Part shown: one piece after another, positions 26,092 to 40,666 of the stretch
Layout: each line of letters opens with the position of its first letter
How positions within the stretch are numbered: the stretch's first letter is position 1
DNA from: Phycicoccus sp. Root101
GTDB lineage: Bacteria; Actinomycetota; Actinomycetes; Actinomycetales; Dermatophilaceae
Reading direction: 5' to 3'
Length of the DNA stretch: 64,000 bases
Assembly (NCBI RefSeq): GCF_001426245.1
Contig: NZ_LMCM01000008.1
Span: forward strand, 186,001 to 250,000
Program-made: the position numbers and the translations under genes
Notes under the pieces: generated by a model
What the model was told of the DNA's origin: nothing
The model's input: the letters and a program-made list of their open reading frames with translations, nothing else
Database searches by the model: none

Positions 26092-26154
26092 AAGCGGGTG
26101 TCGTTCGGCAACACGGGACTTATTTGTCCTGGCATTGCCGAACGACACCCGCTT
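26092..26154. repeat. Palindromic element A1
   Basis: Perfect 20-bp arms AAGCGGGTGTCGTTCGGCAA (26092-26111) and its complement (26135-26154) around a 23-base loop. The loop itself holds a GGAC-TTATTT-GTCC hairpin. It starts 30 bp after the DUF3027 stop, so it could also act as a terminator. Confidence 0.92.
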
Positions 26155-26257
26155 CGTCGTGTCGGCGGTTTCCACAGGCGCGCACTCGTGGGACCGCCGT
26201 CCACAGCTGCCGCTGGCGTCCGTTGGCCACGGCCGGTGACGGCATCACCCTCTCGGC

Positions 26258-27193
26258 ATGGACTCGCAGGCAACCGCGTTGGTGGAAGCGCAGGGTGGGG
26301 TCATCGGTGCCGGCCAGCTCGCCCGGTTGGGCATCCCCGCGTATGACGTGCAGAGCTGGGTCGCGCGCGGCTACCTGCGCCGGGTACGCCGAGGAGCCTT
26401 CGTCGCCGGCCGCCGATGGGACGACGCGGACGGCGACGAGCAGTACCGCCTGACGGTGATGGCGGTGATGCGTTCACGGCTGGACGGAACGGCCGGCGCG
26501 GTCGAGGCAGCCAGTCACCAGGCCGCACTCGCTCTCCACCGACTGCCCCTGTGGCACGTCGACCGCCGCCTCGTCGTGCTCAGCGGCGACGTGCAGCAGT
26601 CCACGACCCTGGCAGGGCTTCGGGTCATGCCGCTCCGGTCGATGGCTTCGGTGGTCGAGGTCGACGGGCTGCCCACCCTCGCGCTCGCAGACGCGGTCGT
26701 GACGACGGGCTCCGGGTCGGTCGAGGCGGGCGTGGTGGCCGCCGATGCAGCCCTGCACGGACAGGCAGCCACCACCGACGACCTGCGCGCCGCCGCCGAC
26801 CGGCTCCTGCCCGGGCTGCGTGGACGGGCCCGGGTTCGACGGGTGCTGGCGGCGATGGACCCGCTGGCAGAGTCGCCGGGCGAGAGCCGGACCCGACTGG
26901 TGCTGTCGGCCCTGGGGCTCCCCGTCGAGTCGCAGGTGGTCGTCCGGGACGAGCAGGGTGGGTTCGTCGGCCGGGTCGACTTCCTCGTCGCCGGGCGCGT
27001 GGTCGTCGAGTTCGATGGTGCGGTGAAGTACGGCGGCGCCGACGGTCGGGACGGCCTCGTCGCAGAGAAGAGGCGCGAGGACCGGCTGAGGTCCCTCGGT
27101 TACGAGGTGGTCCGTCTGACCTGGGCCGACCTCGCCCATCCTGCGCGGATGCTGGCCCAGATCAGGGCTGCCCTCCTGCGTCGCGCCGCCTGA
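26258..27193 (+). CDS. AbiEi-like winged-helix plus DUF559 (Vsr-like) nuclease-domain protein
   Basis: A 311-residue protein. The N-terminus (VEAQGGVIGAGQLARLGI, then WVARGYLRRVRRGAFV) resembles the winged helix of AbiEi-type antitoxins. A middle helical part follows. The last ~110 residues carry a DUF559/very-short-patch-repair-like core: GESRTR, FVGRVDFL, VVVEFDGAVKYGG and EKRREDRLRSLGYEVVRLTW, giving Glu, Asp, Glu-x-Asp and Lys in PD-(D/E)xK order. DNA cleavage is likely but unproven. No partner toxin gene is adjacent. ATG at 26258 lacks a strong ribosome-binding site. The flanks are the paired palindromes A1 and A2. Confidence 0.82.
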   Translation: MDSQATALVEAQGGVIGAGQLARLGIPAYDVQSWVARGYLRRVRRGAFVAGRRWDDADGDEQYRLTVMAVMRSRLDGTAGAVEAASHQAALALHRLPLWHVDRRLVVLSGDVQQSTTLAGLRVMPLRSMASVVEVDGLPTLALADAVVTTGSGSVEAGVVAADAALHGQAATTDDLRAAADRLLPGLRGRARVRRVLAAMDPLAESPGESRTRLVLSALGLPVESQVVVRDEQGGFVGRVDFLVAGRVVVEFDGAVKYGGADGRDGLVAEKRREDRLRSLGYEVVRLTWADLAHPARMLAQIRAALLRRAA

Positions 27194-27279
27194 CCTGCTC
27201 GCCAGCACGCCGCGCACGGGTGACGTGCGCGCCATACCGTCGTCCCGGTAGCCGTGCCCCGGGCCTCGCTGACCCGGCA

Positions 27280-27342
27280 AAGCGGGTGTCGTGTGGCAAA
27301 ACCGGGACAAATAAGTCCCGTGTTGCAGAAGGACACCCGCTT
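27280..27342. repeat. Palindromic element A2 (inverted copy of A1)
   Basis: Same 20-23-20 plan as A1. The outer 11 bp (AAGCGGGTGTC) and inner GCAA pair; four inner positions mismatch. Its loop contains GGGACAAATAAGTCCC, the complement of the A1 loop core. It lies between the nuclease stop and the DUF2530 stop. Confidence 0.9.
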
Positions 27343-27357
27343 CGCGCAGGGGTGGGG

Positions 27358-27612
27358 TTATTCGGCGCCGGCGGCGTTGCCGCGGCCGCGTCTCACGTAG
27401 GAGAAGCCGAGCAGGCCGAGCACGATCGCGGCCACGCAGGTCCATGGCCACCAGTGGCGGTCGCCCTGGTGCAGGGCCGGGACGACGAGGGTGACGACCA
27501 GTGCCACGAGCCACGCGACGGTGCCCCACAGGGTGACGGTCGCGCTGCTCAGCGAGAGCGGCTGGAGCTCGTCCGACGCGGGGGAGTCGGGGTGCCGCTG
27601 CGACTCGCTCAT
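27358..27612 (-). CDS. DUF2530-like small two-pass membrane protein
   Basis: An 84-residue protein with two hydrophobic segments (TLWGTVAWLVALVVTLVVPAL and WPWTCVAAIVLGLLGFSY) joined by the short HQGDRHWW turn, ending in a basic tail. This matches DUF2530 of actinobacteria. ATG at 27612. It is divergent from the NCS2 permease, 54 bp apart, so the two share a promoter region. Function unknown. Confidence 0.75.
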   Translation of the reverse strand: MSESQRHPDSPASDELQPLSLSSATVTLWGTVAWLVALVVTLVVPALHQGDRHWWPWTCVAAIVLGLLGFSYVRRGRGNAAGAE

Positions 27613-27666
27613 GCGTGCAGCCTATCTTTCACACCGCCGCAACACGCAGGCCCTACTCTGCTGCCC

Positions 27667-39312: not shown

Positions 39313-39412
39313 GCGCCCAGTGTCGCACCCCGTCCCGAGGCGTGGGACGTCAGGTCCACCGTCCGGACTCCGCCCCGCGCCATACCGTCCTCTCCGCCCA
39401 CTCCGCGGCGTT

Positions 39413-39452
39413 GTGGTGCAGCAACCTCTGCTAGCAGAGGTTGCTGCACCAC
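39413..39452. repeat. Perfect 40-bp palindrome B1
   Basis: Half-arm GTGGTGCAGCAACCTCTGCT followed at once by its complement, with no loop. The centre is CTAG. It lies between the serC start and the nuclease stop. Two GCAACCTGTG half-sites follow at 39462 and 39481. Confidence 0.95.
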
Positions 39453-39509
39453 GGACGGGGAGCAACCTGTGTCGGGTGCTGCAACCTGTGCTGAGTGCGC
39501 TCTGATCGA

Positions 39510-40502
39510 TCAGACACGGACGCGCCGCCGAGCGCGCAGGATGGCCGCGTCGACGCGTGAGCGAACCAGGCGGAGGTCATCAGCCTCCGCCCACACGAAT
39601 CGGGTGACCTCGCGACCGGCATCGCGCAGGCGGTCCTCGCGCCACTTCTCCGTCGCCAGGGCAGCTCTCAGCTGATCGGCCGTGGGGTTCACCAGGTCGC
39701 CCGAGTACTTGGCCATCCCGTCGAACTCGATGACCACCGGCTCGTCATCGAGCTCGAAGTCGGCCCGCCACCGTCGCCCTTCCGCCTGCACCCAGACCTG
39801 CGGGGTGAAGCGGTAGCCCAGGACGCGCAGGGTGTGCGCCAGGCGGGTCTCTCCCACGGACTCGTGGCGACCATCGGCGTGCTTCAGGAGCTGGCGGACG
39901 GCTGTGATGCCGGGGTGTCGGCCATGGGCGCGGACGGCTGCGGCGAGCTCTTCGGCCGTCACGAGACCGCGACGGAGGGCGGCGTCGGCAGCGACGAGCG
40001 TCTCGAACGGGAACGGACAATGACCTGGCCGCGACGGAACGAGGCCGACCTGCACCACGGCTTGAGCCACGGGAACGGTGAGGTAGCCACGCGGACACAG
40101 GACGGGGTCGCCACCGAAGGCGGGATGGAGAAGGGCCGATGGCCGATGCCGGGAGTGGTCATCGCGCACGCGGCACAGGTGAGCCGTGCTGAGGTCGGAC
40201 TTCCAGAGGGGTACGTCGTGCAGCACCAGCGCGGACTGGTGGCTCGCAACCGCCCGTCCGTCGAACGAGCGGATCAGGGCGAGCGTGAGGAGGCTGTGTC
40301 GCCGGCGCTCGGTGTCGAAGTGGTCGACCCCCTCCCACGGGGGACGGTCAGCGTTCGGCGGATGCACGGCATACCAGCCGCGGATGAGGCGCGTGACGGA
40401 GCCGAGTCGTCTCAGTCGGCGCAGGTCCGATGGACCGATGCCGATCTGTGCCGCCTCGGCAGCCGAGACGATGCCGTCCTTGGCCAGGTCGTGGAGTTCC
40501 AT
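39510..40502 (-). CDS. AbiEi-like winged-helix plus DUF559 (Vsr-like) nuclease-domain protein, second paralogue
   Basis: A 330-residue protein. The N-terminal winged helix ([20 protein letters not shown], then [14 protein letters not shown]) is AbiEi-like. The C-terminal ~125 residues hold the nuclease core: [40 protein letters not shown] and [22 protein letters not shown], the same Glu, Asp, Glu-x-Asp, Lys order as the cassette A protein. The two are diverged but share domain plan. ATG at 40502 lacks an obvious ribosome-binding site. No partner toxin gene. The target and role are unknown; a DNA endonuclease is the best guess. Confidence 0.82.
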
Positions 40503-40584
40503 CGCGAAAGGGTGTCGCAGATGACCCGTTCCTCGCGGAGGGCCTGTGGACAACGCGGTACCTCGGCCAGTCCGGGCCCCACCC

Positions 40585-40596
40585 AGCACAGGTTGC
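40585..40596. repeat. Inner inverted repeat of cassette B (right copy)
   Basis: AGCACAGGTTGC is the exact complement of GCAACCTGTGCT at 39481-39492 on the other side of the gene. Confidence 0.8.
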
Positions 40597-40622
40597 TGCC
40601 CAAGGGGCAGGGAGCACCCTGT

Positions 40623-40666
40623 GCTGACTGCAGCAACCTCTGCTAGCAGAGGTTGCTGCAGTCAGC
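40623..40666. repeat. Perfect 44-bp palindrome B2
   Basis: Half-arm GCTGACTG plus CAGCAACCTCTGCT, then the exact complement, no loop. The inner 30 bp equal B1, but the outer arms differ (GCTGACTG versus GTGGTG) while staying self-complementary. It lies between the nuclease start and the citrate synthase stop. Confidence 0.95.

Follow-up and report, generated by a model that had tools for sequence, protein, structure and literature searches.

To our knowledge, the only enzymes so far linked to palindromes of the REP type are those of a single family, the HUH RAYTs. As set out in one survey of these systems, the hallmarks of RAYTs are palindromes on both sides of the gene, dispersed copies whose abundance tracks the gene, co-evolution of the two and a fast-evolving gene, and in the same survey RAYTs were found only in gammaproteobacteria (PMC2817692). 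Elsewhere, the hosts of RAYT/REP systems are described as also including Nostoc (PMC3116915), and REP sequences are treated in a further paper (PMC8266576).

In the 64,000-nucleotide stretch of the Phycicoccus sp. Root101 genome analysed here (the window), an earlier note likened two one-gene cassettes, A and B, to REPIN-RAYT pairs with a nuclease in place of the transposase. The flanking, dispersal and co-variation described below bear out this likeness, and the dispersal of the palindromes throughout the genome adds to what the note had claimed. In our reading, each cassette is probably a nuclease-based counterpart of a RAYT/REP pair, the protein of which recognises its own palindrome, both where it bounds the gene and where it is scattered at gene ends. 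By sequence comparison, we have demonstrated the layout of the cassettes, the dispersal of their palindromes, family specificity, co-variation with the protein and fast evolution of the genes.

Organization of the cassettes and their proteins

Cassette A extends from 26092 to 27345 and cassette B from 39413 to 40666, and each has a private palindrome copy at either end. The size class of about 1.25 kb proposed earlier holds, with the correction that the outer span is 1254 bp in both rather than 1,251 and 1,254 bp. The left palindromic element of cassette A (26088..26158, plus strand; 16 sites genome-wide) contains a palindrome at 26092-26154, in which perfect 20-bp arms (26092-26111 and 26135-26154) enclose a 23-nt centre with TTATTT. 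It is followed by gene A (26258..27193, plus strand; 311 aa), encoding an AbiEi-like module and a nuclease fold of the Vsr/homing-endonuclease type, and by an imperfect right element (27276..27346, minus strand). The palindrome of the latter (27277-27345) is 76% complementary and has AAATAA at its centre, and is thus inverted relative to the left copy.

Cassette B begins with a perfect palindrome of 2 x 20 bp (39413..39452) and ends with one of 2 x 22 bp (40623..40666). Directly internal to the first are accessory half-repeats, AGCAACCTGTG...GCAACCTGTGCTGAG (39453..39497), and a further set lies internal to the second (40578..40622), both recognised by direct reading; several solo copies have similar accessory sequence alongside. 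Gene B, of the B subfamily, is on the minus strand (39510..40502) and encodes 330 aa from a likely ATG at 40502, the reading frame staying open to 40589 with a longer alternative start. In a scan of the window, palindromes A and B were each found only at their own cassette (chance expectation 0.00), in line with the locus-specific palindrome pairs described earlier.

Cassette A has a DUF3027 gene on one side and, on the other, a DUF2530 gene, beyond which come permease and cold-shock genes, and cassette B lies between the genes for citrate synthase and a class-V aminotransferase. A whole-genome search for the winged helix PF13338 returned genes A and B and one more, C (C5:346936), and all three have the palindrome-flanked plan. 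Palindrome C is of a third type (1344-1394 and 2449-2499 of locus L003), and the neighbours of cassette C encode an inositol phosphatase and a glycosyltransferase. No known RNA family in Rfam matched between 25900 and 40900.

Two other kinds of repeat or block were observed in the window. The motif GGTATGSCGCG is present in 13 copies, where 0.08 would be expected (at 2285, 11100, 18684, 22965, 24837, 27228, 33860, 34391, 37781, 39376, 40695, 54881 and 61414) and is not specific to the cassettes; in places it forms hairpins between genes, and such hairpins are also seen at the B site of five genus relatives in which that site is empty. Upstream of the aminotransferase gene, at about 39315-39370, is a block resembling GGTGGTGGACCT..CGTCCCACGCCTCGGGACG, which by eye is found in the same place in the genus genomes compared (L251-L260), in G005 as a variant. 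It has no Rfam match in the window and is possibly a leader element.

Each cassette was said to carry a single gene for a winged helix plus a Vsr/DUF559-like nuclease, and this agrees with the domain assignments. The AbiEi_4 winged helix is present in both proteins (E 1.8e-7 in A and 1.7e-8 in B); DUF559 is weak in A (E 0.005, under Pfam's cut-off) and none was reported in B. Pfam and PADLOC gave nothing beyond AbiEi and weak DUF559/MTES_1575 matches, NCBIfam had no match above its cut-off for these proteins, and a sequence search of the PDB reached only E 0.07-0.6 at best. In an AlphaFold model of protein A (pLDDT 94.9), the AbiEi-like module takes up residues 1-201 and a nuclease fold of the Vsr/homing type about 205-311, the closest match being the homing endonuclease I-Bth0305I (fold similarity only). 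These two parts span the whole length of the protein, and an HUH enzyme is absent among the fold matches listed for the model. Protein B aligns with protein A in sequence across the nuclease part.

The two cassettes had been described as sharing a plan and not sequence. The common plan and the unrelated palindromes stand; the proteins are 34% identical and fall in one tree, which resolves a single family with three well-separated subfamilies (A, B and C). Residues G38, A165, S206, E209, D241, E251, D253, G254, R273 and R286 are invariant over 26 genus proteins, and at least 520 relatives were confirmed in one scan. One gene copy, L067 in G008, is apparently frameshifted and has no readable nuclease part; it occupies the site of full-length copies in G002 and G003.

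Dispersal, gain and loss of the palindromes

The cognate palindrome was dispersed in all five palindrome families tested. In the window genome (G000), palindrome A has 14 of its 16 sites (E up to 0.002) away from the gene, palindrome B has seven sites at no more than one mismatch and one at three (0 with the reversed control), and palindrome C has nine. Across 11 genus genomes, palindrome A is found in G000, in G006 (7 sites), in G001 (2 weaker sites) and in G002 (1 site), and in none of the other seven; the A genes of G000 and G006 are the closest pair (83% identical). Matches to palindrome C are restricted to G000 plus one site in G006, and C-subfamily genes are present in five other genus genomes, where the visible palindromes have diverged. 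The B core at up to two mismatches has 7, 6, 1, 3 and 9 sites in G000, G001, G002, G006 and G008, respectively. A B-clade gene is present in all five of these and in one more of the 11 genomes, G004, where the palindrome has diverged and two B-core sites are found at three mismatches. Of the five genomes lacking a B gene, four have no B core and G007 has two copies at three mismatches. Moreover, the CTTG/CAAG centre of the palindromes at G008's own gene is found in 9 of 12 G008 sites, as against 0 of 26 in the six other genomes with matches. Two distant genomes were selected because each is a single contig and its palindromes are clear. G026 has 17 and G126 has 13 sites of its own palindrome type, the two arms of one palindrome being grouped as one site; in each search, seven other genomes, among them the other of the pair, had none.

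Comparison of orthologous sites shows, at the level of species, presence and absence of both cassettes and solo palindromes, as the earlier note had proposed to look for among strains. Five of 11 genus genomes have cassette A at its site, and four of 11 have cassette B at its own. The A site is empty and free of palindrome in G002, G004, G008 and G009, and no B palindrome is found at the B site in the other seven of the 11 genomes. In G007 (L242) and G003 (L247), the A site has another gene after DUF3027, by eye an XRE-type regulator. Four C8 solos of G000 were looked for in the syntenic regions of G001 and G006. Two of them, L024 and L040, are missing in both relatives; the region orthologous to L005 was found in G001 and not in G006, and that for L030 in neither. 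No target duplication was seen in this comparison.

For seven G000 solos, a solo occupies the orthologous position in G001 or G006. At solo site L005, each genome's copy is closest to its own cassette: the copy in G000 has a similarity of 56 to the G000 cassette, against 22 to that of G001, and the copy in G001 has 57 to the G001 cassette, against 16 to that of G000. L014 and L015 show no such switch. One orthologous intergenic site, homologous on both flanks, carries a solo in G008 and a B-type cassette in G002. A C solo of G000 adjoins the same neighbour gene as the A-type cassettes of G002 and G004, with one flank only aligned.

These observations bear on a first alternative, a homing endonuclease with a palindromic target, where the gene cassette alone would be mobile and the solos would be pre-existing targets or scars. 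Against it, the solos are several-fold more numerous than the cassettes and private to the gene type, and the empty A and B sites have no palindrome of that type. In addition, two solos have left no trace in either of two relatives, so that the palindromes themselves are gained or lost. We regard this explanation as unlikely.

Generality, co-evolution and genomic placement

The association between gene and palindrome was scored from the pair of palindromes around a gene that matched best (threshold at least 15), with windows of equal geometry shifted by 1.4-3.5 kb (up to 2.7 kb for named loci) as control. The genus set comprises loci for 30 of 31 matches (G008:C1:2338655 was left out), which at 3 kb were judged against the shifted-window control of the other sets. 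A matched flanking pair was found at 20 of 26 genus loci, three of the 26 being from the window genome; cassette A scores 9, below the threshold, because its right palindrome is imperfect. Among named relatives (Phycicoccus, Knoellia, Janibacter, Kribbella, Rhodococcus, Propioniciclava and others; 6 of 80 loci dropped, and L159, L161 and L166 duplicating genus loci), the figure is 41 of 74, compared with 5 of 528 shifted windows. The phylum sample is not random, consisting of 30 loci and 60 hand-chosen matches (open frames of 293-454 aa) among the matches listed, with 6 of 90 loci dropped at contig ends; here, 22 of 59 genes have a pair, compared with 4 of 545 shifted windows, and 37 of 59 score below threshold. 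A second test, by flank alignment above the 99% point of 1122 shifted windows, gave 24 of 26 in the genus, 48 of 74 among named relatives and 16 of 59 in the phylum sample. Most homologues in the genus and among named relatives have flanking repeats, as do a minority of the phylum sample, where the association is strong but not universal. In the flanked loci, the quartiles of the outer span are 1118 and 1215 bp, and the pairs are inverted in 28 cases, direct in 43 and tied in 10, cassette A being clearly inverted.

AbiEi_4 genes that have no recognised nuclease had flanking pairs in 0 of 29 cases (0 of 4 in the genus, including the apparently broken copy L067, and 0 of 25 in the phylum sample), and 1 of 49 shifted windows around them was above threshold. 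The class is defined by E of at least 0.01 with our own profile; a few of the 29 are full-length and may carry a divergent nuclease.

Palindrome similarity tracks protein identity, as had been predicted, with a Mantel r of 0.51 over 83 flanked loci (two of them, L161 and L166, duplicates) and 0 of 2000 permutations as high. A palindrome score of at least 15 was reached by 11 of 11 locus pairs above 70% protein identity (2 being duplicates), 30 of 43 at 60-70% and 30 of 68 at 50-60%, and by at most 4.2% in every bin below 50%. Within one locus, left and right palindromes match with a median score of 31 (81 loci selected for a score of at least 15). The genes themselves diverge rapidly. Identity of gene A to G000 is 83, 68, 63 and 60% in G006, G001, G010 and G005, compared with 93, 98, 87 and 84% for the neighbouring DUF3027 gene. 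For gene B, it is 78, 72 and 69% in G001, G006 and G008, and for the aminotransferase 93, 91 and 90%, the G008 match being in two pieces (90 and 84%). Judged from these alignments, cassette genes A and B change faster than their neighbours. The A allele was probably replaced in one lineage, since gene A of G000 pairs with that of G006 in the tree (support 100/99) and DUF3027 is closer in G001.

Placement in the genome was determined with a crude GC3 gene caller. The input of 55 sites left out 2 C sites and 5 G026 sites; 12 G026 sites were unplaceable and 3 fell inside over-long ORFs. The 40 sites placed, 6 of them cassette flanks, lie in convergent gaps (22) or co-directional gaps (18) and never in divergent ones, compared with 21 convergent, 43 co-directional and 24 divergent among 88 ordinary gaps from the same caller. 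This weakens the second alternative, a transcription regulator with palindromic operators, whose dispersed copies would form a regulon. The AbiEi winged helix and the palindrome upstream of each gene would suit a regulator, and the AbiEi antitoxin of S. agalactiae is described as autoregulating through inverted-repeat binding (PMC7319586). However, the divergent gaps where promoters would be expected hold none of the 40 sites, the second palindrome is at or past the stop codon, residues of catalytic type are invariant, and the pairs are missing around the AbiEi_4 genes without a recognised nuclease. A regulon therefore seems quite improbable.

The palindromes could also be protective marks, decoys or regulatory brakes of an anti-phage or self/non-self nuclease, to which we give little credence. 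The PADLOC matches listed for A and B are indeed all AbiEi models, but no AbiEii nucleotidyltransferase toxin was found among the scanned genes adjoining A, B and C, and a search with protein A, the only query used, brought up no relatives among phages or plasmids or in IMG/VR at the thresholds applied (in IMG/VR, 20 pattern matches and 0 confirmed); private dispersal is left unexplained as well. On the same grounds, an AbiE toxin-antitoxin pair and phage or plasmid cargo were rejected. Ordinary terminator hairpins, present by chance at both gene ends, would account for the preference for gene 3´ ends and are nevertheless highly improbable, because the copy on one side of a gene matches that on the other, the copies are unlike those of relatives with less than 50% protein identity, and genomes without the gene type have few or none of them.

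Proposed mechanism and comparison with known systems

Reading the cassettes as nuclease-based counterparts of RAYT/REP pairs, we consider the following mechanism most likely. The AbiEi-like part would read the palindrome and the Vsr/homing-type nuclease would nick or cut it, upon which repair copying another palindrome, or a whole cassette, could spread and homogenise the family. Loss of the gene would leave a solo palindrome. In 28 B-type copies (from G000, G001, G002, G006 and G008), the arms beyond a fixed core vary from copy to copy yet still pair, with a mean run of 6.5 nt compared with 3.3 when arms are swapped, and 4.32 compared with 3.16 of 8 paired at arm positions 5-12 (0 of 5000 permutations as high). 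This suggests either a role for the folded or dyad form or the occurrence of fold-back copying. For palindrome A, the five double-change pairs observed were not above shuffles (295 of 500 as high).

On balance, we lean slightly towards a broader interpretation, in which the cassettes represent a second, independently evolved class of bacterial repeat-spreading systems in many lineages of Actinomycetota, with an antitoxin-derived reader, a homing-type nuclease, and break-and-copy repair accompanied by stem-extending fold-back copying. If so, evolution has arrived more than once at private palindrome populations tied to a gene, the cassettes offer hundreds of natural pairs of protein and palindrome from which to learn how domains of this kind read DNA, and a role is found for many genes whose only match is an antitoxin model. 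The origin of intergenic palindromes in actinobacteria becomes testable. Among the matches listed in open-licence PubMed Central, none describes AbiEi/DUF559 nucleases with dispersed palindromes.

Besides RAYT/REP, three known systems come closest to the cassettes. I-Bth0305I and other Vsr-like homing endonucleases resemble them in the fold of the catalytic domain (fold similarity only), whereas the cassette genes lie outside introns and inteins and have paired flanking palindromes and many solo copies. Unlike the AbiEi antitoxin of AbiE, a type IV toxin-antitoxin system, the cassette protein has a nuclease domain, matched palindromes on both sides of its gene, and no AbiEii partner among the scanned neighbours. 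In contrast to TnsA of Tn7, it has no partner transposase among these neighbours.

RAYT/REP systems (TnpA-REP, REPtrons; REPINs) resemble the cassettes in several ways. In both, a single chromosomal gene lies between two private palindrome copies, the cognate palindrome is dispersed in intergenic space with an abundance that tracks the gene (7-17 sites per genome in those tested here), gene and palindrome co-evolve, and the gene evolves faster than its neighbours. The cassettes differ in being actinobacterial, in palindromes A and B in which no GT(A/G)G head was noticed by reading, and in an enzyme that joins an AbiEi module to a Vsr-type nuclease fold. Filed by genome organization alone, they may be grouped with RAYT/REP. 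They work like RAYT-REP and are not members, because no HUH tyrosine transposase of the IS200/IS605-related type, by which RAYTs are defined, was found in the cassette proteins. We count them as new in kind because the enzyme and the host phylum, and so presumably the chemistry, differ from those of RAYT/REP.
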